From the IMG/VR virus record IMGVR_UViG_3300027734_000105, positions 1 to 50,582 of that record: 50,582 bases of DNA; one strand, written 5' to 3'. The notes beneath the pieces are model-generated. The model saw nothing but the letters and a program-made list of their open reading frames with translations. It did no database searches and was not told the DNA's origin. Position numbers and translations under genes: made by a program. Source of the DNA: a virus. Below are positions 9,541 through 41,605 of this stretch, in pieces (position 1 is the first letter of the stretch; each line of letters opens with the position of its first letter).

Positions 9541-12500
9541 ATGGTTTGGACTCCTCCTGCCGATGCTGTGTTGACACAGCCAAGCCCTGCAAAAACGTGG
9601 ACTCCACCGGCTGATGCTGTACTAACACAGCCAAGCACTACAAAAGCGTGGACACCTCCCGCTGATTCTATTGAAACGTCGCTTAGCCCTGCTGCGCCTG
9701 AGAGGGAGTCATTCCCGCTTTTGCGTGAAATTGCTGACGTACCGTTGAAGGTAGGTGCTGGTGCAATCACTGGAATACGGATGGTTGCCGATGCCTTCGG
9801 TGCAGATAGCGATGTATCAAAAAATCTTAGGGGTGTAGAGGACTACATCGCGGCGCTGTACAGCGCGCAGTCCAAGCAGGACAGTCAAGAGATAGCACGC
9901 ATCATGAAAGATGCAGAGGACAAGGGTGTCCTGTCGCAGGTGGTAGCCGCAGGTAAGGCTTTTAGCGTTGCTCCTGTAGACTTACTTTCTAACGCTCTTG
10001 GTACAGCCGCTCCCGCCATTGCTGCCGCAGTAGGCACTACTCTTACTGGTGGGGTTCCGCTCGTAGCTACCGCAGCAACGCTTGGTACTGGTGCAGTGAT
10101 GGGTGCGGGCACGATCAAGGGCTCTATCTACGAAGCCACTAAGGAAGTGCTTAGTGAAAAAACTAAGATGTCACCCGAGCAGATTGAGAAGGCTGCTGTT
10201 GAAGCTCAGAACTATGGTGGCAAGAACCTAGACCAGATTTTGATAGGCGCGGGAATCGGGGCTTTTGCGGCATCAAGTGGTGCGGAGCTTGCTATAGCTC
10301 GTCAAGTGGCTAAAGGGATTGCTACTACCGCAGCCCAGAAAGAAGCAGTCAAACTAGCCACTAAAGATGCTGCTGCAAAGGCTGTTGAGCGTGGCGTAGT
10401 AAAGCAGGCTGGAATTACTGGTGGCACAGAATTCGTAGGCGAAGGCTTCCAAGGCGGACAAGAGCAACTAGCTAAGAACCTTGCATTGCAACGGCAGGGC
10501 TTTGATGTGCCCACGATGCGTGGCGTTGCCGGACAAGGCGCTTTGGAGGGTCTGGCTGGCCTTGGTATGGGTGCTGTTTCTGGCGGGCGTGAAGCCTACA
10601 CTGCTAGGCGCGATGCTGCTGTACAGAACGTCATTGACCAGACTACAAAAGAACAGACGGACCTCAGAGACCGGTTTACAACTTCGAGCATGGACGTTAA
10701 GGAAGCTGACAGACTGCCCACTGAAGCCGAACTAGCCTCGCTCAACGCTGCTATTGCCGCCCCGCCCGGTTCGATCATTCCCCCGGCCCCTCCAAACCCG
10801 CTTGCAGAAAAACTCAAAGCCTATATAGACGCCATCCCCGAAGGCAAAGAAGCGGAGATGATCAAGCCGGAGGACACTCGGAAGCTAATAGCTCAGATGA
10901 AAGAGCTTGGCCTACCTGCGCCTAAAGCCGACAAGACTAAGGGCGAGAGCACTAGGGTGCTGGCTGTCCAAGCACTACGCCAGTATTTTGCCGCTGGTGG
11001 CGAACAACTCACAGACATCCCCGACATACAAGGAACTACCGATGGCACTCAAGCCGCTCAAACCCAGCAAACAACGGCGCAAGGACAACAAACAACCCCA
11101 GCCCCAGATGTAACGACCACTACCGTAACGCCTCCTCCTGCGCCCCCTGTAGATGTAACGCCCCCTACACCTCCGGCCCCTGTTGCTATCCCCATGAACA
11201 AGGCGTTTACCAACGTCTACACAAGCGCGCTTAACAAGCTTATTGCTAACCCCAACGACAAAAAAGCCCTAGACACGGTTAACTCGCTAGAGCGTAAGCA
11301 CAACATGCCGTTGACCGGCGCAACCCCTAAAGGCGGGGTGCTCAGTGCAGTAGATTCTTCGGCAGCGGCTAGGGCCCGAGCAGCAGATGCAAAAGCTCGC
11401 CTTGAAAAACTAGCTAAAGAAAACGTGACCCTAGCTGGGGATGTGAAATTTCAACCTTCTGGGTTCCCCGGCCCTGCATACAACCCCAAACCCCCTGCAC
11501 TTGGTACGCAATGGCAAACCGAGCCGGGCCCCTACGTGCGTCAACAAGCACCTGCAAAGCCTGCTGAGAAACCCAAGGCTGAGAAAGAAGAACCAAGCAC
11601 AGCTTATAAGTACGACCCTGACATAAGCCCTGAGCTCAACCAAGAGTTAGCTTATCAAATTGCTGCTGAAGAAGAGAGCCTGCAAGATGAACAACGACGG
11701 CTTGATTTTGAAGAGGTAGATGCAAAAGAAGCTGGTACTAGATTCAAGACTTCTAAAGAAGACATAGCTGCGTTTGAAAAAGTCAGAGCAGATCACAACG
11801 CTAAAGCTAAACAGCACAACAACCAACGCCTAGCAGCAATCAAAGCGTTAAAAGCTGCTAGTGATAAAGCCAATGAAGCGTTAAATGCGGAAGCAGAGTA
11901 CAAAAAATCTGCCGGTATTACCGAAGACGTTGAGCCTACAGAGTACGCTACTACTAGAGCGTTAAAAAAATTAAAAGGCAATAAGGCTAAGTTAACAGAA
12001 CTAGCAAATGTAGTAAGCAAAGCTATTGCTGAAGAAGAAAAAGCTAACGAATTGGTTAGGTCGTTTAGCCCTGAGCCAATACTTCTTATCCCGTCTTGGT
12101 CGGACATGGGCCCGCTCAAAGACATCTACTTCAAAGAGATTAGGTACGGGGATTACGTTCGTAAACAAGCGCAGCCAACAAGGGCTGACCTTGAAGCAGA
12201 GCGCGGCGCGCCGCCGCCAAGAGATGTGGCTATGTTTGAGCACCGCAAAGCGGCTCAGGCAGTGGTGCAGGCTTTGACTGACCGGTCATACAAGTGGCTA
12301 TCTGAGAGTGAAAAGCGTCTTGTCAATGTGTACAACGACTCCCGCCCCCATATGGGCAGGATATTTAGAAATCCGTTTCCCGCATGGCGTGATCTTTCTG
12401 ATGCGGCTAAGGAAGCATTTAAGAGTGGCTTGGTTAACAAAGAAGGCAAAACCAACTTCTCGGGGCTGCAGATAGACCGGGCGTTTACCAACTTGGCTGA

Positions 12501-15500
12501 GAATTTAGCTAAAGAGCCCTCTGACAAAATTGCAGCAGAAGAAGCCCAAATTAGACAGGGTAATGAAGAGCGTTTTTCAAAAGAAGGCAAAAAGTTTGAG
12601 ACCGCTCAAGAGCGGGTTCAGCGTGAGTCAGCAGAGCTAAAAGAACGCTTAAATAAAGGGTACGTACCCGAAGTTGATATATTTACGGGAGAGGTTACTA
12701 AGCCCCGGTTTGGAAGTGGCGCTAATGAAGTTAGGTCAGAAGGCCTTAACGACTACAAAAAACTGGAAGAGCTAATAGCTGATGGCAAGCTGCATGAGGC
12801 GTTGCTCCACATCAGCAACATGAAGTCCGTAAGCGCGTTCAACAAAATTATTGCCAACGCAGTGGCTTCTATGGTTAAGGAGATGAAGTCTCCTCCACTG
12901 CTTGTACTTACAAGAAAGCTATCTAACAACGACCTTGGGCAGTACGACCCTAGCCATGTATCTGGAGACAATGTACACATTGGCAAAATCTCCATTAGGT
13001 CTGCGTCACCTACTATTCTTTTGCACGAAGCTGTTCATGCAGTTACCGTGCAGGTGCTTTACAAGTACCTAAACAACCCTGAGTCGTTAACCTCCTCGCA
13101 ACGGGCAGCGGCTGAACAAATATTCAAAATCATGGCGGTTACCCGTGACCATGTCGATGAAGAAAACGTACCATTTGGTGAAAAATATCCTAATGCATAT
13201 GAGAGCGTATTTGAATTTCTTGCTTACTCAATAACTGACAGTGATTTTCAAAACGAACTGGTTGATATTAACTTACCAGCAGATAGCCGTCTTGGTTTTT
13301 TACTGTTCAATAAAATTGATGAACCCGAAACTGCAAATATAAGCAATATATCAAAAGCACCTATGTCTGCGTGGACGGCGCTCAAATTATCTGTTGCTGA
13401 GCTTATTGTCGTTGGGGTTCGGCTAGTTAAAACAAAAATTAACAAAACCAGACAAAAAGAATTAAAAAAAGAAGAGGAAGCTGGGTCAATTTCTGAAGAA
13501 GAAGCAGCGGTTAATAACTATAGGTATGTAAATAAAGAAGTATCGTTAGCTGACTTTTTGCGCTCAAAAAAGCGTGAAACCGAACAAGGTAAATACGTTC
13601 ATCAAAATTTCTTGATGGAGCTAGCCGCTGCTTTTGAAGATGTCATGGCTCCACAGACTAAAGCTATTCTGTTTGAGGCAGGAGATTTGTCGGCTAAGTC
13701 TAAGCCTGCACCTACGCCACGCACAGCCGAAGAACTTCGTAGTGGTGGTATCAATAACCCCAAGCTAAGAGAAGCTATGAAGGAGCAAGGGCTTCCTGAG
13801 GGTGGGCAAGATACCGGAGTGTTTAAGTCACTGCTTACGCAAAATGGATGGCGCAACATGGCGCGGCTGGTACAAGACCGGACGTACGAGGCTAGGAGCT
13901 ATTTCAGACGACAAGACTTGGGCGGTAAGGTCATTCGTGACATGACCAAGGCGTTCAACAACGTGACAGAACACCTCGACCTCTCTATGGGGGAGATGCG
14001 CAACTTCCTTGACCACCACCTGCGAGTGCCGCTTGAGGATTACAAAAAGGCGGTCAATGAGTACGTCAAGATAGCTGGCAAAGGATTTGATGAGGCACTT
14101 GTAGACCTGCAGTTGTTTGGCGAGATGCTGCACGAGCCTGAGCGCCGCTTGGCTAAATTTATTGTGTCTGTACCGCTCAGGACAATAAAAGACCTAATAC
14201 ATAACGGACAGCCTATTAGTGCCGCACAACGCCGCATTGACATCCTCGGAGACATGCGTACTGGTAAGCCGGGCATCATCCACAAGTTCAAACTGACAGA
14301 AGCCCAACGGACTGCGCTGTGGGCAGAACTAACGTACCTCTCTAAAAACTATGGTGACCCGTTTGGTGATAGCCCGCGCCTGTCAAAGGCCCAGATCGAT
14401 GCTGCAATAAAACGGCATCAAGAACAACTTAAAGCAAACCCCAGCTTAGCAACGTCTACAAAGAAAGACCCAAGGCTTGACATCGACAATAGCTTGTACA
14501 ACGCATTGGGTATAACGAACGATGAGGTTCAACTGCGCAAGACTCAGTTCAATGACAATGCCATAGTGTCTCCTGAGCGTAGGGCGGCGGCTATGAAAGT
14601 GTTTGAGACCATGCAGAGGATTAACAAGGCTACTGCTGACTTGAACAAAATTGGTAACTACTGGTCTACCCCCGTTGACAACCTTGTGGGGATGTACAAC
14701 TACCAACACTACATGCCGTTCAAGGGCAAGGCAAAACACTCTGAGGTTGACCACTCACTTGACCCTAACCGGATGGGCAACGGGGTAGACATGCAGGAGA
14801 TCGAGTACGAAGCCACAGGCCGTTTTAGTATTGCCGACAACCCTGTGCTGCAAGTATTGAACGATGCGTTCCGCAGCGCACGGCGTGCTGGTGTGCGTAA
14901 CTACACACAGTCAATCAAGAACGCTCTCTCCGCAGACCCCAAGTACAACCCTAACGGTACAGGAATCTTGCGCGGCGTTGTTCACAAGAACATCAAGTTT
15001 GAAGACCGTGGTGTGGCTAACCTGCAAGAGTTCAAAGGCGGTCAGTACATATTCCACTACAACGAAGACGGTTCTATTGACATCTTGAAAGTGACCGACC
15101 CCAAGCAGTTGCAAGCATTGCGCTACTCCTTCAAGGACAGCAACATCATGCTGCAAATGGCTAACAACGTCACTTCGTGGATTGGCTCGACGCACACTCG
15201 GTACAACCTCAACTTCGCACCGAAGAACTTCGTGGTCGATGCGCTGACCAACGCTTGGAATATTGGTGGGGGCAAGCTTGGCCCGTTGAAGTCCGCTACG
15301 TATCTCAAGGATGTTGCATACCAAGTGAGCAAGAACGGCCTTGGCAAGGCTCTTGAGGTAGCGATATTCCACGAGAAGGGTGACCCCGCAAGCCAGAAGC
15401 GATTGGCTGATATGGCGGATAAAGACCCGTTTGTGAAGGCCATGCTGGAGATGATTCAGTTTGGTGGCAAGACTACCTACGTGGAAAACTTCTCGCTCAA

Positions 15501-17022
15501 AGGCAACCTCGAAAAACTAAAGAGCTTTAAGCGCAACCGCATCTTGCGGACCAAAGACCAGATTGAGACGATGCTCGATAGCTGGAACGGCATGTTTGAA
15601 TTCACCAGCCGTACGGCTGCTTACATGCTTTACAAGGAGCGGTTCTACGCAGAGAACAAACTCACCATGTCAGACGTTAAGGCTCCGGGAGAAGCAATGT
15701 CTCCAGCAGAACGGGCGGCAAGCGTGCAGGCAGCGGCGGAGACTAAGAACCTAGCCAACTTTGAGAAGGCGGGCGAGAAGGCGCAACAGCTTGGTGCGTT
15801 GTATATGTTCATCAGGCCATCGGCTACCGGCGCGGTGCGGGCTATTGAGACCGTGGCCCCTGCTCTTACATCGGAAAAACAAGCTAGGGATAACATGCCC
15901 GCCAACATAGCTGGTGACAAGGCGGCAGCAGAGAAGTACATGGCTGAGTTCAAGGAGCTTCGCACCAATGCGCAGCTAATGACCGGCACGCTTCTTGGTA
16001 TTGGCTACACCCTGTGGTGGATGTCTTCACTGATGGCTCCCGATGATGAGTGGGACCGCAACTCCACTCAGTACGACAACATGCAGCAGTGGACTAAGTA
16101 CGCTCGGTTCCACATCCCCAACGGTGTGTCTGAAGCTATGGGCATGGGCAAGGACGTTGTGTTCCAGATGCCTTGGGGCTTCGGGCTTGGTGCGTTCCTA
16201 TCCATGGGGGCACAGATGGCGGGCATGATGCACGGGAACACCTCTCTCAAGGATGGCATGGGTAACATCGCGCTTGGTGCGCTGGCTGACTCGTTCTTGC
16301 CGTTGCCTGTGTCTCGCATCCCTATCACGGAGAAGCCCCTGCATTGGCTGGGCGATTCTCTGCTGCCTTCCGTCATGCGGCCCTACTTCGAGTACCTGTT
16401 CAATGTGAACGGTATTGGGCAGACTATCAACAGCGCATCGCAGCGGAAGTTCGGCGACGCCTTCACTGGTGGAGATAGGATTCCCGAGGCGTGGAAAGAC
16501 TTGTCAGCATGGGCGTACAACAGCACTGGTGGGGTACTGAACCTCAGCCCTAACACGATGTACTTCTTTGCCAACAGCTACGTAGATGGCTATGCGCGCT
16601 TAGGTGAGCTTGCGTATAGCTGGGTAGACATCGGCGCAGGCGATAAAAACTTCAACCCCAAGACAGACCTGCCATTACTTGGCTCGTTCTTCGGTGCTAA
16701 GTCCAACGTGGATGCGCGTGACTTCACAGCAGTTGAGGACAAGATAAAGAACCTAGATGAGCGGTCTAAAACGCTAAAGAAAACCTCAACTGAGGCCTAC
16801 TACAAGTTCATCTCAGACAACCCAACAGCGGAGCTTGCCGTGGGGGTTTACTACGCCCAGCTAGGTAGCTTGAACCGCATTAGGAAAGAGGCCAATGACA
16901 TCCGTGTCATGCCAATCTCCCTAAAGGACAGGCAAGATATGCTTCGGTTAAACATCCTGCGGCAGAACATGGTGAAGCGGCAGATGATTGAGGCATTCAA
17001 GGCCTATGGGGTTGAACCCTAG
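9541..17022 (+). CDS. Giant polyvalent ejection protein with HExxH metallopeptidase-like site
   Basis: A 2,493-aa protein, the largest in the window. It starts with three 17-residue repeats (WTPPAD...). Gly/Ala-rich hydrophobic stretches follow at about 141-195, 230-250 and 333-350, then a Pro/Gln/Thr linker (about 500-555) and a charged coiled-coil region. A zinc-peptidase-like HEAVH lies at 1162-1166, with candidate third ligand E1225 in the VFEFLAY stretch. The long C-terminus includes FIRPSATGAVRAIE and a hydrophobic segment GTLLGIGYTLWWMSSLM near 2150-2168. The C-terminus resembles large polyvalent protein domains of the LPD38 kind (recalled). Such proteins enter the cell with phage DNA. 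The start has no clear Shine-Dalgarno. The stop shares CTAG with the converging gene. Confidence 0.7.
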   Translation: MVWTPPADAVLTQPSPAKTWTPPADAVLTQPSTTKAWTPPADSIETSLSPAAPERESFPLLREIADVPLKVGAGAITGIRMVADAFGADSDVSKNLRGVEDYIAALYSAQSKQDSQEIARIMKDAEDKGVLSQVVAAGKAFSVAPVDLLSNALGTAAPAIAAAVGTTLTGGVPLVATAATLGTGAVMGAGTIKGSIYEATKEVLSEKTKMSPEQIEKAAVEAQNYGGKNLDQILIGAGIGAFAASSGAELAIARQVAKGIATTAAQKEAVKLATKDAAAKAVERGVVKQAGITGGTEFVGEGFQGGQEQLAKNLALQRQGFDVPTMRGVAGQGALEGLAGLGMGAVSGGREAYTARRDAAVQNVIDQTTKEQTDLRDRFTTSSMDVKEADRLPTEAELASLNAAIAAPPGSIIPPAPPNPLAEKLKAYIDAIPEGKEAEMIKPEDTRKLIAQMKELGLPAPKADKTKGESTRVLAVQALRQYFAAGGEQLTDIPDIQGTTDGTQAAQTQQTTAQGQQTTPAPDVTTTTVTPPPAPPVDVTPPTPPAPVAIPMNKAFTNVYTSALNKLIANPNDKKALDTVNSLERKHNMPLTGATPKGGVLSAVDSSAAARARAADAKARLEKLAKENVTLAGDVKFQPSGFPGPAYNPKPPALGTQWQTEPGPYVRQQAPAKPAEKPKAEKEEPSTAYKYDPDISPELNQELAYQIAAEEESLQDEQRRLDFEEVDAKEAGTRFKTSKEDIAAFEKVRADHNAKAKQHNNQRLAAIKALKAASDKANEALNAEAEYKKSAGITEDVEPTEYATTRALKKLKGNKAKLTELANVVSKAIAEEEKANELVRSFSPEPILLIPSWSDMGPLKDIYFKEIRYGDYVRKQAQPTRADLEAERGAPPPRDVAMFEHRKAAQAVVQALTDRSYKWLSESEKRLVNVYNDSRPHMGRIFRNPFPAWRDLSDAAKEAFKSGLVNKEGKTNFSGLQIDRAFTNLAENLAKEPSDKIAAEEAQIRQGNEERFSKEGKKFETAQERVQRESAELKERLNKGYVPEVDIFTGEVTKPRFGSGANEVRSEGLNDYKKLEELIADGKLHEALLHISNMKSVSAFNKIIANAVASMVKEMKSPPLLVLTRKLSNNDLGQYDPSHVSGDNVHIGKISIRSASPTILLHEAVHAVTVQVLYKYLNNPESLTSSQRAAAEQIFKIMAVTRDHVDEENVPFGEKYPNAYESVFEFLAYSITDSDFQNELVDINLPADSRLGFLLFNKIDEPETANISNISKAPMSAWTALKLSVAELIVVGVRLVKTKINKTRQKELKKEEEAGSISEEEAAVNNYRYVNKEVSLADFLRSKKRETEQGKYVHQNFLMELAAAFEDVMAPQTKAILFEAGDLSAKSKPAPTPRTAEELRSGGINNPKLREAMKEQGLPEGGQDTGVFKSLLTQNGWRNMARLVQDRTYEARSYFRRQDLGGKVIRDMTKAFNNVTEHLDLSMGEMRNFLDHHLRVPLEDYKKAVNEYVKIAGKGFDEALVDLQLFGEMLHEPERRLAKFIVSVPLRTIKDLIHNGQPISAAQRRIDILGDMRTGKPGIIHKFKLTEAQRTALWAELTYLSKNYGDPFGDSPRLSKAQIDAAIKRHQEQLKANPSLATSTKKDPRLDIDNSLYNALGITNDEVQLRKTQFNDNAIVSPERRAAAMKVFETMQRINKATADLNKIGNYWSTPVDNLVGMYNYQHYMPFKGKAKHSEVDHSLDPNRMGNGVDMQEIEYEATGRFSIADNPVLQVLNDAFRSARRAGVRNYTQSIKNALSADPKYNPNGTGILRGVVHKNIKFEDRGVANLQEFKGGQYIFHYNEDGSIDILKVTDPKQLQALRYSFKDSNIMLQMANNVTSWIGSTHTRYNLNFAPKNFVVDALTNAWNIGGGKLGPLKSATYLKDVAYQVSKNGLGKALEVAIFHEKGDPASQKRLADMADKDPFVKAMLEMIQFGGKTTYVENFSLKGNLEKLKSFKRNRILRTKDQIETMLDSWNGMFEFTSRTAAYMLYKERFYAENKLTMSDVKAPGEAMSPAERAASVQAAAETKNLANFEKAGEKAQQLGALYMFIRPSATGAVRAIETVAPALTSEKQARDNMPANIAGDKAAAEKYMAEFKELRTNAQLMTGTLLGIGYTLWWMSSLMAPDDEWDRNSTQYDNMQQWTKYARFHIPNGVSEAMGMGKDVVFQMPWGFGLGAFLSMGAQMAGMMHGNTSLKDGMGNIALGALADSFLPLPVSRIPITEKPLHWLGDSLLPSVMRPYFEYLFNVNGIGQTINSASQRKFGDAFTGGDRIPEAWKDLSAWAYNSTGGVLNLSPNTMYFFANSYVDGYARLGELAYSWVDIGAGDKNFNPKTDLPLLGSFFGAKSNVDARDFTAVEDKIKNLDERSKTLKKTSTEAYYKFISDNPTAELAVGVYYAQLGSLNRIRKEANDIRVMPISLKDRQDMLRLNILRQNMVKRQMIEAFKAYGVEP
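9547..9669 (+). repeat. Three tandem 51-bp coding repeats
   Basis: Two full repeats and one decayed repeat encode WTPPADAVLTQPS-type units at residues 3, 20 and 37 of the giant polyvalent protein. Codons differ between copies while the amino acids are kept, so the repeat appears selected at protein level. Confidence 0.85.
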
Positions 17023-38322: not shown

Positions 38323-38664
38323 TCAGATGTTGTCGTAGCCTGTGCAGAAGGCCCAGAGTGCGGCCTCGCTGTCTGGCTCATGGATGGTCAGCCCATCGAA
38401 CTCATTGTCGATGTCACCGAACTCATCAAAGTCGTAAGCCCGATCAAGGAACTCAAGATTCTGTGTGTGGTAGGTATCGACACGGAACTCAGTCTTCATA
38501 TAAGAGTCTACTGAGTCATAGGGAACTCTTCTTGCCAGGCTTGCCAGGCTGTAAGAAACTTTTGGTCGGTATTGTTTGCGGAGGTGGCGAGGCAGGGATG
38601 CGAGCCATGCGGTGGCATCACGCTGTTGGTCTGCTGTTGCGGTCATAAACGATAGTGTTGGCAT
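38323..38664 (-). CDS. Hypothetical phage protein, first gene of the accessory operon
   Basis: A 113-aa protein with a basic N-terminal half (LPRHLRKQYRPKVSY) and an acidic C-terminal half (FDEFGDIDNEFDG). AAGGAG precedes the ATG. It is the first gene after the promoter at 38753-38781, so it would be among the first leftward products. No family recognised. Confidence 0.6.
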   Translation of the reverse strand: MPTLSFMTATADQQRDATAWLASLPRHLRKQYRPKVSYSLASLARRVPYDSVDSYMKTEFRVDTYHTQNLEFLDRAYDFDEFGDIDNEFDGLTIHEPDSEAALWAFCTGYDNI

Positions 38665-38690: not shown

Positions 38691-38706
38691 CCCACGCATG
38701 CGTGGG
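38691..38706. promoter_or_regulatory. Perfect 16-bp palindrome CCCACGCATGCGTGGG
   Basis: It lies in the leader between the promoter at 38753 and the gene at 38664. Related sites are at 39322-39339 and 40235-40252. No U tract follows, so an operator or RNA-structure role is more likely than termination. Confidence 0.7.
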
Positions 38707-38752: not shown

Positions 38753-38781
38753 ATTGTAGGCGATTTTGACTCTTATGTCAA
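38753..38781 (-). promoter_or_regulatory. Sigma-70 promoter for the leftward accessory operon
   Basis: Minus strand TTGACA, 17-base spacer, TACAAT. The -35 falls in an inverted repeat TTGAC-N6-GTCAA (38766-38781), like the promoter at 36571. Confidence 0.9.
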
Positions 38782-38825
38782 GGCTTTATTTACATTAGTT
38801 AGGTAGTGGCGAGGTGGGTTGGGGC

Positions 38826-39201
38826 TTGTTCTATTTGTTCTATTTGTTCTAGTTTTTGACTTTTACATATAGAACAGGGTTTTGTGGGTTGGGCGTTTGT
38901 AAGTCGTTGATTTCATTCATAAAAATATTTTTATAAATTAAAAAAGAGAGGTTTGTTCTATGTTCTAGTGTTTTTGAGGGTATATGCCTCCTTTTGACGC
39001 TGTTTTTGCATAAGGCGTTGCAGAAGCTGCTAAGCCTCCACGCCCTGCAAGTTTTTGCCAAAATCTCCCCTATCCAAAAAAATTCGTAGAACATTAGAAC
39101 AAAACACCGTTTTTCCCTTTAAAATCAACGCTCAACCCTGTTCTAATAGTGTTATTAAAAACAGAACAAAGCCTGTTTTGCGGAACAGAAAACTAGAACA
39201 A
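38826..39201. repeat. TTGTTCTA / TAGAACAA box array
   Basis: Three tandem 9-bp copies start at 38826, 38835 and 38844. Further boxes lie at 38870 (inverted), 38953, 38962, 39087 (inverted), 39095 (inverted), 39140, 39162 (CAGAACAA) and 39194 (inverted). The left part is mainly TTGTTCTA, the right part mainly TAGAACAA, giving overall opposed orientation. Confidence 0.85.
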
Positions 39202-39218
39202 ACGCCATTTTCTATCGC

Positions 39219-39321
39219 GTACCGTTTGCTTAAACCAAGTATATGTACAATTTGTCTCGTGGTGTACCGTTTTCTTAATCCATAGAGCCTGATTCCGTGT
39301 ACTTCGCGTACCGTTTTCTTA
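39219..39321 (+). repeat. Three GTACCGTTTnCTTA direct repeats
   Basis: Copies at 39219-39232, 39264-39277 and 39308-39321, spaced 45 and 44 bases. That is close to four helical turns, so bound proteins would face the same side of the DNA. Confidence 0.85.
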
Positions 39322-39433
39322 TCCCACGCAAACGTGGGACGCTATTTAGTGGCTTGACTACGCTGTGCGCGCTCAAACAAGCCACGCCCCTCGCGCGCGC
39401 CCCACTATATAACTGGCATCAAAACGGCGGGCG

Positions 39434-39470
39434 CAAAAAAACCCGCTAGGCCTTGCGACCTAGCGGGTTT
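39434..39470 (-). terminator. Terminator of the first cassette gene
   Basis: Minus strand AACCCGCTAGG and CCTAGCGGGTT arms (11 bp) around an 8-base loop, then a T run. It immediately follows the 218-aa gene. Confidence 0.92.
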
Positions 39471-39482
39471 CATCTACCAATA

Positions 39483-40142
39483 TTATTTGGTATTGTACGC
39501 CTTCCAGAATGCATCAACCGCCATTCTGAATTGCACAGGGTTTGCGGTAGTGTCACCGCTACCTGCTTTTGCTTTTACTTTCACCGATTTTTCGAGACCG
39601 TCAAATGCTTTCTGCACCGATGCAGTAAACAAAACAATATTGCGGGTACGCCTTGCACCGGGTGTTGTCTCAGCGATAACGGCTTTTGCGGCTTTCACTA
39701 AATCGTTGAAACGATTAGTGGCATAGTCCTTCATAGCATCCCGATATTTTTCTACAATTTTGCGCCATGCTGGATCGTCTTTTGTCATTTGCCCATACTC
39801 ATGCGTTGTGATGTTCATGAGATAGTCCGCACTAATTGTCCGGCGCTCATGGTCTCCCGTGAGTTTTGTTGTGTCGATATCGGTCTCCGCGAGATAGTTT
39901 CCGCCGACATTGATAAACATCACGGGAGGGTGCAACGACCCCCATTTTTTCTGATAACCCGTTTTCAGTTCGGCTTTGCTTTCATCGGGGCATTCGGCGG
40001 GAAACCCTGCAATGTTTGCAATTGCATACTTTGCCATTTCCTGCACTTTGCCCGTCAAACCCGCGTGGGCATAGGCAAAATCGGAGAGTGATTTAAATTG
40101 CAGGGTTTCGCCTGCGGGAGATAGTTCGGCTTTTTTTGCCAT
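39483..40142 (-). CDS. Cassette gene product, unknown function (219 aa)
   Basis: A lysine/alanine-rich protein of about 219 aa from the ATG at 40142 (MAKKAELSPAGETLQF...), with AAAGGAAA upstream. A longer start at 40184 lies in the operator and is rejected. It is mainly helical: KVQEMAKYAIANIAGFP, then a beta-like PPVMFINVGGNYLAETD, then long helices, and a basic C-terminus. The gene has its own promoter, operator and terminator, as morons and early takeover genes often do. I recognise no family. Monocistronic, strongly promoted expression suggests a host-interaction protein. Confidence 0.65.
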   Translation of the reverse strand: MAKKAELSPAGETLQFKSLSDFAYAHAGLTGKVQEMAKYAIANIAGFPAECPDESKAELKTGYQKKWGSLHPPVMFINVGGNYLAETDIDTTKLTGDHERRTISADYLMNITTHEYGQMTKDDPAWRKIVEKYRDAMKDYATNRFNDLVKAAKAVIAETTPGARRTRNIVLFTASVQKAFDGLEKSVKVKAKAGSGDTTANPVQFRMAVDAFWKAYNTK

Positions 40143-40176
40143 GGTGACATTTCCTTTAAAAATGGAAAGAGAAATC

Positions 40177-40198
40177 GTCAACACCGATCTGTGCTGAC
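40177..40198. promoter_or_regulatory. Operator-like inverted repeat at promoter P1
   Basis: GTCAACAC-CGATCT-GTGCTGAC, 8-bp arms with one mismatch, at the expected start site of the 40205 promoter. It matches the repeat at 40882-40901. Confidence 0.7.
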
Positions 40199-40204
40199 AA
40201 TGTA

Positions 40205-40233
40205 ATTATCTCATAAACCACGCCTTATGTCAA
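40205..40233 (-). promoter_or_regulatory. Sigma-70 promoter P1
   Basis: Minus strand TTGACA, 17-base spacer, GATAAT, a near-consensus promoter for the 39483-40142 gene. Confidence 0.93.
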
Positions 40234-40234
40234 G

Positions 40235-40252
40235 TCCCACGCCTGAGTGGGG
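40235..40252. promoter_or_regulatory. CCCAC...GTGGG palindrome upstream of P1
   Basis: TCCCAC-N6-GTGGGG directly upstream of the P1 -35, related to palindromes at 38691 and 39322. Confidence 0.6.
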
Positions 40253-40291
40253 TACTAAATAGGCGCGATCGACCACGCTCGCCACACGCGC

Positions 40292-40315
40292 GCGGCAGAA
40301 AATAACTGGCATCAA
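40292..40315. repeat. Cassette boundary element, copy B
   Basis: 24 bases identical with copy C at 40986-41009, ending TAACTGGCATCAA. A shorter copy A (TAACTGGCATCAAAA) is at 39410-39424. Each lies just after a cassette terminator. Confidence 0.85.
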
Positions 40316-40327
40316 AAACGTGGGCGC

Positions 40328-40356
40328 AAAAAAAGGGCGGCTTGCGCCGCCCTTTT
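40328..40356 (-). terminator. Terminator of the second cassette gene
   Basis: Minus strand GGGCGGC-GCAA-GCCGCCC with flanking A/T runs, followed by TTTTTTT. Confidence 0.92.
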
Positions 40357-40369
40357 CAGTCAGTGGGGA

Positions 40370-40849
40370 TCAATCGCACTGAATCTCATACTTGAAAACC
40401 TCTTTCAGTTCCTTTCCGATTACCACCTTTCTGCAGGTTGGGGAATCATCTTTAACATAAACGCAAAGGGAAACCCGGTGGCCCTTTGGAAGGGTGAAGT
40501 GATAATCCCGATTCAAGCTCTCGGGCCACTCGCGAGTGCGAGTCAAACCATCTTCGCACAGTCCATCCAGGTATTCAACTAACGATGCAAGCACAGGAAC
40601 TTTAAAACTTTCCAGACCATACAAGTAGACGCCGATTTGGAAATTGTCCGAATAAGCGTCAGCGCTGACGTGAGCATTGACGTTTTTCAAGCCTGCGCCG
40701 GAGACAATCAATGCGATGGGGCGGAGGATTTTTTGAATCCGTGCCTTGTTAGAGCGGAGGATCGAAACGCGCTTCTTCGCGTTTGTTACACCTTCGGAGA
40801 GGTCGATAAGAGCGGAGTCAAAAGCGGAAGCGGCTGTAAATTGAGCCAT
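40370..40849 (-). CDS. Cassette gene product, unknown function (159 aa)
   Basis: A 159-aa protein (MAQFTAASAFDSALIDLSEG...). It has an N-terminal helical third (about 1-45) and a beta-rich remainder (NVNAHVSADAYSDNFQIGVYLYG and YHFTLPKGHRVSLCVYV; each no longer than needed here). AAAGGAAA precedes the ATG. A single gene with strong promoter P2, operator and terminator, like its neighbour. No family recognised. It is likely expressed early and strongly, and may act on a host target. Confidence 0.65.
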   Translation of the reverse strand: MAQFTAASAFDSALIDLSEGVTNAKKRVSILRSNKARIQKILRPIALIVSGAGLKNVNAHVSADAYSDNFQIGVYLYGLESFKVPVLASLVEYLDGLCEDGLTRTREWPESLNRDYHFTLPKGHRVSLCVYVKDDSPTCRKVVIGKELKEVFKYEIQCD

Positions 40850-40881
40850 GGTAATTTCCTTTGCAAAGGGTTTAGAAACTA

Positions 40882-40901
40882 TCAGCGCCGATTTGCGCTG
40901 A
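40882..40901. promoter_or_regulatory. Operator-like inverted repeat at promoter P2
   Basis: TCAGCGC-CGATTT-GCGCTGA, perfect 7-bp arms, at the predicted start site of P2. The spacer resembles that of the P1 repeat (CGATCT). Confidence 0.75.
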
Positions 40902-40908
40902 CAATGTA

Positions 40909-40937
40909 ATTATCTCATAATTGAGGCTATATGTCAA
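40909..40937 (-). promoter_or_regulatory. Sigma-70 promoter P2
   Basis: Minus strand TTGACA, 17-base spacer, GATAAT, for the 40370-40849 gene. Confidence 0.93.
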
Positions 40938-40985
40938 GTATGGCACCTGAATGGGCGCTCTCACACGCTCGCGCACTACACGCAC

Positions 40986-41009
40986 GCGGCAGAAAATAAC
41001 TGGCATCAA
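40986..41009. repeat. Cassette boundary element, copy C
   Basis: 24 bases identical to copy B at 40292-40315, immediately downstream of the terminator at 41013. Confidence 0.85.
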
Positions 41010-41012
41010 TGG

Positions 41013-41041
41013 GCCAAAAAAGAAGGGGGCCGAAGCCCCCT
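41013..41041 (-). terminator. Terminator of the third cassette
   Basis: Minus strand GGGGGC-TTCG-GCCCCC then TTCTTTTTT, right after the gene at 41046. Confidence 0.92.
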
Positions 41042-41045
41042 CCTC

Positions 41046-41297
41046 TCACTCGGCGTCGAACAGGTCGCGCTGTCGTGTCCAGTGCATGTCCATCATCACC
41101 TTAGCTGGATAGCCTTCGATGCCCTGCATCATCAGCCCAAATCGCACCAAGCTTGCAGATGTCCGCCCGTTGTCGGCTTGCAGTATCTTGCAGACATTCT
41201 TAAACTGGGCGTTGCCCAACCATTGCTTGCAGTCAGCCAATGCTTTCTTAACTGTCTCTTGCGACCCAAGGTCGCTGTACTGAATCTCATAGCTCAT
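41046..41297 (-). CDS. Hypothetical cassette protein (83 aa)
   Basis: An 83-aa helical protein (MSYEIQYSDLGSQETVKK...) with two cysteines and a Met-rich region (VRFGLMMQGIEGYPAKVMMDM). No family recognised. Second gene of the third cassette, separated from the first by a GC hairpin. Confidence 0.6.
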   Translation of the reverse strand: MSYEIQYSDLGSQETVKKALADCKQWLGNAQFKNVCKILQADNGRTSASLVRFGLMMQGIEGYPAKVMMDMHWTRQRDLFDAE

Positions 41298-41314
41298 GTC
41301 ATTGCTCCTAAAGA

Positions 41315-41332
41315 TGGGGGCCGAAGCCCCCG
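41315..41332 (-). promoter_or_regulatory. GC hairpin between the two third-cassette genes
   Basis: GGGGGC and GCCCCC arms around CGAA, with the same stem as the 41013 terminator but no U tract. It may be an attenuator or mRNA-stability element. Confidence 0.55.
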
Positions 41333-41336
41333 TTGG

Positions 41337-41531
41337 TTAATACACTGCGCGGCGACCACCGAGCAGCTTGCCGTGCTTGCCGTACACCACCGTGTATCGG
41401 GGCTTGTAGCAGCGTACCCAGTCAAGGGCGTCTGCTTCGTTGCGGGCCCACCAGTGATGGGCGTATCCGCTAGCTCTATCCATGGCTATCACTTCGTAGT
41501 GAGTGAGCCACAACCATATGGCTTTGAACAT
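41337..41531 (-). CDS. Hypothetical cassette protein (64 aa)
   Basis: A 64-aa Trp/Tyr-rich basic protein (MFKAIWLWLTHYEVIAMDR...). Shine-Dalgarno AAGGAG lies 6 bases before the ATG. It is the first gene after promoter P3. An N-terminal WLWLT segment is hydrophobic but too short for a certain membrane span. No family recognised. Confidence 0.6.
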   Translation of the reverse strand: MFKAIWLWLTHYEVIAMDRASGYAHHWWARNEADALDWVRCYKPRYTVVYGKHGKLLGGRRAVY

Positions 41532-41576
41532 ATGTACTCCTTCTCTGTCTCTTGCGACATGCTAGACAGTGATTGA

Positions 41577-41605
41577 ATTATCTCATAAACCACCCCATAT
41601 GTCAA
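41577..41605 (-). promoter_or_regulatory. Sigma-70 promoter P3
   Basis: Minus strand TTGACA, 17-base spacer, GATAAT, about 170 bases from the divergent late promoter. Confidence 0.92.

Follow-up and report, generated by a model that had tools for sequence, protein, structure and literature searches.

A terminator-promoter boundary module and a variable small-gene slot in a putative early-gene array of uncultured freshwater phages

The window, a virus record of 50,582 bases, carries at the start of its leftward gene block an array that is probably an early leader: a run of separately promoted and terminated cassettes in which the genes of one slot are exchanged at the joint between cassettes. 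Each intercassette region, as read from alignment of related loci, is a composite of terminator, GANRCCAGTTAT followed by CGCGCG, dyads, a sigma-70-like promoter, a predicted leader hairpin and an RBS. The internal cassettes hold a conserved set of predicted genes, namely paralogs of family F01 and, optionally, family F02. The slot between a 64-aa gene and the first element holds small predicted genes that differ between phages, and alignments lose homology at the element's 5' edge.

Anatomy of the array in the window

None of 50,697 phage records is a near match to the window. Its late genes (terminase, portal, capsid and a GroES-like co-chaperonin) run rightward as one block; those for DNA metabolism (family-A polymerase, helicases and exonuclease) run leftward as another, and the array lies at the start of the latter, adjoining terminase. 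On the minus strand the first unit consists of a promoter at 41605, the 64-aa gene, an 83-aa gene, a terminator and an element; the second of a promoter at 40937, the 159-aa F02 gene, a terminator and an element; and the third of a promoter at 40233, the 219-aa F01 gene, a terminator and an element. Three self-contained minus-strand units of this kind had been proposed in an earlier sequence-only reading. Its promoters, its perfect terminator for each unit and its conserved element just after each terminator were all recovered, the terminator positions it gave being the T-run side of the hairpins, and self-containment is supported by the promoter and terminator that each unit possesses. The 5' leader hairpins and the dyad beside the -35 were absent from that reading. 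The features, in transcriptional order, are:

41577..41605, minus strand: cassette 1 promoter, TTGACA-17-GATAAT with extended TG, 11/12
41545..41569, minus strand: cassette 1 5' leader hairpin (CTGTCT/AGACAG), from sequence reading
41337..41531, minus strand: 64-aa gene, conserved first gene, located before the first element in 119/123 relatives
41046..41297, minus strand: 83-aa gene in the hypervariable slot; its family, v03, recurs sporadically in distant lineages
41023..41040, minus strand: cassette 1 terminator, perfect 6 bp stem with UUCG loop, then T run
40996..41009, minus strand: boundary element 1 (TTGATGCCAGTTAT), 25-base identity with element 2
40909..40937, minus strand: cassette 2 promoter, TTGACA-17-GATAAT with extended TG, 11/12
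40880..40903, minus strand: cassette 2 5' leader hairpin (GTCAGCGC/GCGCTGAT), compensated changes versus cassette 3
40370..40849, minus strand: 159-aa gene, family F02
40335..40352, minus strand: cassette 2 terminator, perfect 7 bp stem, then T run
40302..40315, minus strand: boundary element 2, exact tag match
40236..40251, no strand: operator-like dyad CCCACGCCTGAGTGGG adjoining the -35, dyad family D7, conserved in aligned copies
40205..40233, minus strand: cassette 3 promoter, TTGACA-17-GATAAT with extended TG, 11/12
40174..40201, minus strand: cassette 3 5' leader hairpin, from sequence and a folding test of the F01/F02 leader class
39483..40142, minus strand: 219-aa gene of family F01, its ATG preceded by an RBS; starting from the GTG at 40184 the product would have 233 aa
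39442..39467, minus strand: cassette 3 terminator, perfect 9 bp stem, then T run
39409..39422, minus strand: boundary element 3 at the array end, exact tag match
39323..39338, no strand: array-end dyad CCCACGCAAACGTGGG; relatives have TTCCACG-N4-CGTGGAA at the same place

The 50.6-kb window contains four promoter-type sites scoring at least 11/12, three of which form the array; Markov shuffles contain 0.37 on average. Three minus-strand sites within 1.5 kb occurred in 0/60 shuffles. This scoring covers the window promoters; the predicted promoters of relatives are weaker (TTTACT/A). Folding of the terminator regions gave a median z of -3.3.

The leader hairpins start at about the predicted transcription starts. 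Between the F02 and F01 leaders of the window the stems differ by compensated changes (GCGC/GCGC versus GCAC/GTGT, with a G-T wobble beside them), and 182 leaders from relatives had a median folding z of -2.4 versus -0.4 for coding controls, their stem sequences being widely different. Folding, compensated pairing and divergence of the stems together favour an RNA structure over a sequence-specific operator, the ordinary function of which would be protection of the 5' end. Next to the -35, the dyad resembles an operator and is a candidate binding site. A perfect palindrome, CCCACGCATGCGTGGG, at 38691-38706, between a promoter at 38781 and a gene start at 38664, is the dyad seen beside the array promoters and suggests one regulator for several early promoters.

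Further repeats lie nearby. Directly past the array end, at 39215-39335, there are three copies of GTACCGTTTKCTTAWWCCA with 44-45-nt spacing and none elsewhere in the window; they are iteron-like and possibly mark an origin or a regulator site. One exact GTACCGTTT match was found in the neighbourhood of locus L005, and TTTGTTCTA repeats occur at 38825-38977 around the 38849-39094 ORF. A phage virion RNA polymerase was considered as the user of the promoters and rejected. The 2493-aa protein encoded at 9541-17022 does match a PHROG of that name, but the match covers a stretch with LLHEAVH, an HExxH motif of the metalloprotease kind. Polymerase motifs were not found, and the family name is probably misleading in this case.

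The boundary element and the genes it accompanies

The window holds exact copies of the tag TAACTGGCATCAA at 39410, 40303 and 40997 only. These are three exact 14-mers, compared to 4.2 matches expected when up to 3 mismatches are allowed. The second and third of these copies share an identical stretch, as had been noted, although its length is 25 bases and not 24. Every copy sits directly after a terminator, at the 3' end of a unit. There is no tag upstream of the 41605 promoter, and no promoter of the TTGACA-17-GATAAT type after the 39410 tag. As elements and terminators are equal in number and none precedes the first promoter, the element belongs to unit ends.

Relatives were collected by a terminase search, which gave 80 related loci, and by an F01 profile, which gave 80 more; all are metagenome assemblies. 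An element profile found 328 copies in these loci, 328/328 in array orientation. Among the 128 loci with a usable core, 72 had three copies, 34 two, 17 one and 5 four. Across 155 dereplicated copies GANRCCAGTTAT was nearly invariant, with GA.RCCAGTT essentially invariant at about ten positions and followed by the CGCGCG block; the 100% figures for the core are slightly inflated because it was located by its CCAGTT (7/328 hits deviate or are cut). The element was far more conserved than the genes, in line with the contrast between flanks and genes anticipated from the sequence. The layout was aligned over 105 promoter-bearing and 50 other copies. Copies preceding F01 or F02 run in the order terminator, TTTGATACCAGTTATTT, TCGCGCGCGTG, CAAGCGCGCTAAATAG, CCAT(N)CCCCGTGAAACTTTACTTAA, -10-like TA..T, hairpin and RBS, with a median distance from element to start codon of 167 nt for F01 and about 152 nt for F02. 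Array-end copies keep the element and have TTAATTAGCGTTCCACG-N4-CGTGGAA; such a promoter is absent from them.

A search of the viral collection with the element pattern alone returned 85 stretches, and F01 or F02 was found in 81/83 new loci, the 2 remaining having a single element near one contig end. Database occurrence of the tag was confined to one uncultured, mostly freshwater group of tailed phages, and the same pattern had 0 hits in 84,980 bacterial and archaeal genomes, bacterial absence being judged by the element pattern. Over the full length of 13 contigs from relatives, most occurrences of the short core were array copies, and the others were scattered singles. No score near gathering was obtained from Rfam, and readings of the element as an IHF site, a DnaA box or a Chi-like site were rejected by eye as the variable positions misfit. 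The carriers appear to be lytic-looking and the group widespread. The closest terminase relatives of the window are HTVC023P/HTVC027P, 023Pt_psg01, DSL-LC04 and MinM2. The annotated hosts of cultured terminase relatives (SAR11, cyanobacteria and a lake gammaproteobacterium) do not pin down the host of the array phages, and neither F01, F02 nor the element was found in the terminase neighbourhoods of these cultured phages.

Complete inter-element intervals in the terminase-selected loci held F01 in 48/58 cases, F02 in 8/58 and something other than these in 2/58. F02 and the slot genes are present in some close relatives and absent in others; F01 is in nearly all. In the F01 tree proximal and distal copies form old clades, and the paralogs are mostly positionally stable. 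The only clear sister pair consists of tandem copies in one locus (L043:7140-7835 and L043:8026-8700), which by its place in the tree appears to be the sole clear case of recent duplication or conversion. The slot, from the 64-aa gene to the first element, comprised 36 gene families in 41 arrangements over 71 distinct slots.

The genes had been said to match no known family, and F01 and F02 gave no usable hits against PHROG, Pfam, PADLOC and PDB sequences; their profiles are unrelated to each other. Structure prediction, proposed earlier for the array products, was applied to F01 and F02 with AlphaFold2 and returned confident folds (pLDDT 88.7 and about 88.1, respectively). The F01 model had no fold match at E <= 0.001 in PDB and BFVD, nor did the F02 model have a structural match at that threshold. 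A weak resemblance of F02 to nucleotidyltransferases of the Pol-beta and Rel folds (E 4.5e-3, TM about 0.35) was rejected. As judged from profiles and the predicted fold, F01 is a new family with no detectable relative in sequence or fold. By position and promoter type, early host takeover would be the likeliest role of F01 and F02. The earlier suggestion that the array genes serve host takeover or defence gains nothing from the family searches, which gave no hits.

Turnover in the slot and at cassette joints

In six pairs of loci (L007/L008, L004/L092, L155/L157, L157/L163, L070/L153 and L049/L125) a block of 90-96% identity starts 4-7 nt before CCAGTT. This start coincides with the first conserved base of element 1, and the preceding sequence is unrelated. 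Among deduplicated events 8% of left block ends lie no more than 15 nt from an element versus 2.1% expected, whereas right block ends show no enrichment (1% versus 2.3% expected); these events are not fully independent, some loci being the same contigs fetched twice.

The clearest mosaic is L092, in which a window-like slot appears to be joined to an L004-like F01 cassette at the tag. Identity to the window is 90.8% over its slot and terminator, which have no match to L004 except for 49 nt. For the segment from element through F01 to the next element, identity is 94.1% with L004 and falls to 61% with the window and 62% with L005. The right flank is 97.6% identical to L005 versus 82% to L004 and the window, this right-hand switch being located 0.2-0.4 kb beyond element 2 and not at the element. 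In L005 the F02 cassette is missing and the boundary is chimeric between two window copies. On the promoter side this boundary agrees with the window's copy ahead of F01 at 33/36 positions versus 17/38 for the copy ahead of F02, and on the terminator side with the copy ahead of F02 at 30/40 versus 23/40 for the copy ahead of F01. This supports one clean cassette loss or gain with a chimeric boundary.

These observations can be accommodated in a single scheme. Host RNA polymerase would transcribe each unit soon after entry, as suggested by host-type promoters and a location where the leftward block begins. The terminators would insulate the units, so that a slot gene could be replaced without disturbing the next unit. 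Slot genes would be swapped through crossovers, or through joints favoured by selection, at the conserved sequence between cassettes, and whole cassettes would now and then be lost or gained there. That the element is near-invariant points to a second role, most simply the binding of a phage or host factor. Against this scheme stand the unenriched right block ends, the right crossover of L092 beyond the next element and the vertical inheritance of most F01 cassettes.

A conserved element will by itself halt a homology block nearby, and the position of a break is therefore no proof of recombination there. This leads to a possible, though less probable, account in which the element is purely a regulatory or DNA-binding site conserved by function. 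Adjacent sequence would turn over by any mechanism and only look element-bounded as conservation resumes at the site. The near-invariance in divergent phages indeed exceeds what homology for recombination needs, and the element is kept after the last cassette, where no such promoter follows. In addition, the variable dinucleotide of GANRCC matched between the last two elements of a genome in 63/112 cases versus 31 expected in a naive test, as one trans-acting factor would produce, although the flanks of the elements follow position; nearest-neighbour contrasts here are weak (3 joint changes). The agreement within a genome could reflect gene conversion or a co-evolving binder. Against a purely regulatory site, homology resumes at 90-96% for about 900 nt or more, well beyond the element itself, and the L005 boundary is chimeric between two copies. 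More speculatively, and with rather low probability, GANRCCAGTTAT-CGCGCG might be a dedicated site that is read by a phage-encoded factor, marks cassette ends and directs joints, in effect a docking site for early-gene exchange in lytic phages. F01 and F02 would in that case be candidate readers since they nearly always accompany the element.

The sequence-only reading had taken the layout for a moron array whose identical flanks allow genes to be exchanged. Exchange at the flanks held in part: turnover stops exactly at the element in several pairs, and one cassette loss or gain was found, so that the model applies to one slot and to gain or loss of whole cassettes. It does not extend to the array at large. 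A classical array of independently acquired, host-derived cassettes, freely swapped at all positions, is very unlikely. It would account for the promoter-gene-terminator units and for a slot with so many families, but the same two families, F01 and F02, occupy 56/58 internal intervals, the F01 clades follow position and the element was not found in the 84,980 bacterial and archaeal genomes searched. Furthermore, the GC content of the array genes is 47-57% compared to 51.0% for the window. With an sd of 3.4 across 500-nt windows, the genes deviate by no more than about two standard deviations and are not atypical, so the usual mark of recently imported morons is missing. Least credible of all, assemblers might have joined unrelated metagenome pieces at a repeat found 2-4 times per genome and common to co-occurring phages, but several pairs from different samples show the breaks, each of the two forms in the L155/L157/L163 group came from assemblies of more than one sample, with matching comparison results for L156 and L157 and likewise for L163, L164 and L165, and the window array was also found in L002 with matching spacing.

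Relation to known systems

Exchange of slot genes within a separately promoted leader, the reading favoured here, bears on how small early genes are swapped while expression is kept, an open question in lytic phages that has been studied mainly in T4-like phages. An unrelated freshwater phage group appears to have reached a similar promoter-terminator module with a near-invariant motif added, and exchange is confined to one slot whose joint can be mapped. This slot also provides a ready list of 36 small families that are likely early-expressed, and F01 is of interest as a new family with a confidently predicted fold. In a limited literature check, the promoter-terminator boundary module of these uncultured phages is previously undescribed.

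Several known systems share parts of this arrangement. Morons of lambdoid phages are ORFs flanked by their own promoter and terminator (PMC1524935), as the array units are; the array differs in its unexceptional GC, in that most cassettes are conserved and paralogous and in that no recent import was seen between elements. The SAS/ESAS repeats of cluster K mycobacteriophages are short gene-boundary repeats suggested to be regulatory and possible targets of homologous recombination (PMC3203893). The array motif is likewise a short repeat tied to gene boundaries, but SAS/ESAS are named for translation starts, whereas the array motif lies behind terminators, with about 150-170 nt between it and the next start codon. 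The haloarchaeal virus HGTV-1 has a repeated promoter and inverted-repeat motif before many ORFs, likened to PeSLs by its authors (PMC3950731); its promoter motif is archaeal and TATA-like, and no evidence links it to the array. Site-specific cassettes of the integron type come with a cognate recombinase, and no integrase or recombinase was found among the window ORFs searched, small ORFs being covered in part.

The closest known kind is the PeSL (promoter-early stem-loop element) of T4-like phages. In the accounts given in PMC4503421 and PMC3950731, which cite Arbiol et al. 2010 (10.1093/gbe/evq006) and Comeau et al. 2014 (10.1093/gbe/evu129), a PeSL combines a terminator stem-loop and an early promoter between small early genes and is proposed to mediate gene shuffling among related phages. 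The intergenic element of the array likewise combines a terminator stem-loop with a predicted early promoter. As far as these accounts go, the array differs in belonging to an unrelated phage group and not, by its closest terminase relatives and its family-A DNA polymerase, to a T4-like myovirus, in having only 2-4 copies in one place with the near-invariant motif added after the terminator, and in that turnover is found in one slot whereas PeSLs lie in a dense hyperplastic region. Shuffling of the PeSL type may be reflected in the breaks at the element and in the L092 mosaic, but the signal lies on one side and covers a single slot plus cassette loss. Judged by its predicted parts, the array module is PeSL-like in its working, outside the T4 family that defines PeSLs.
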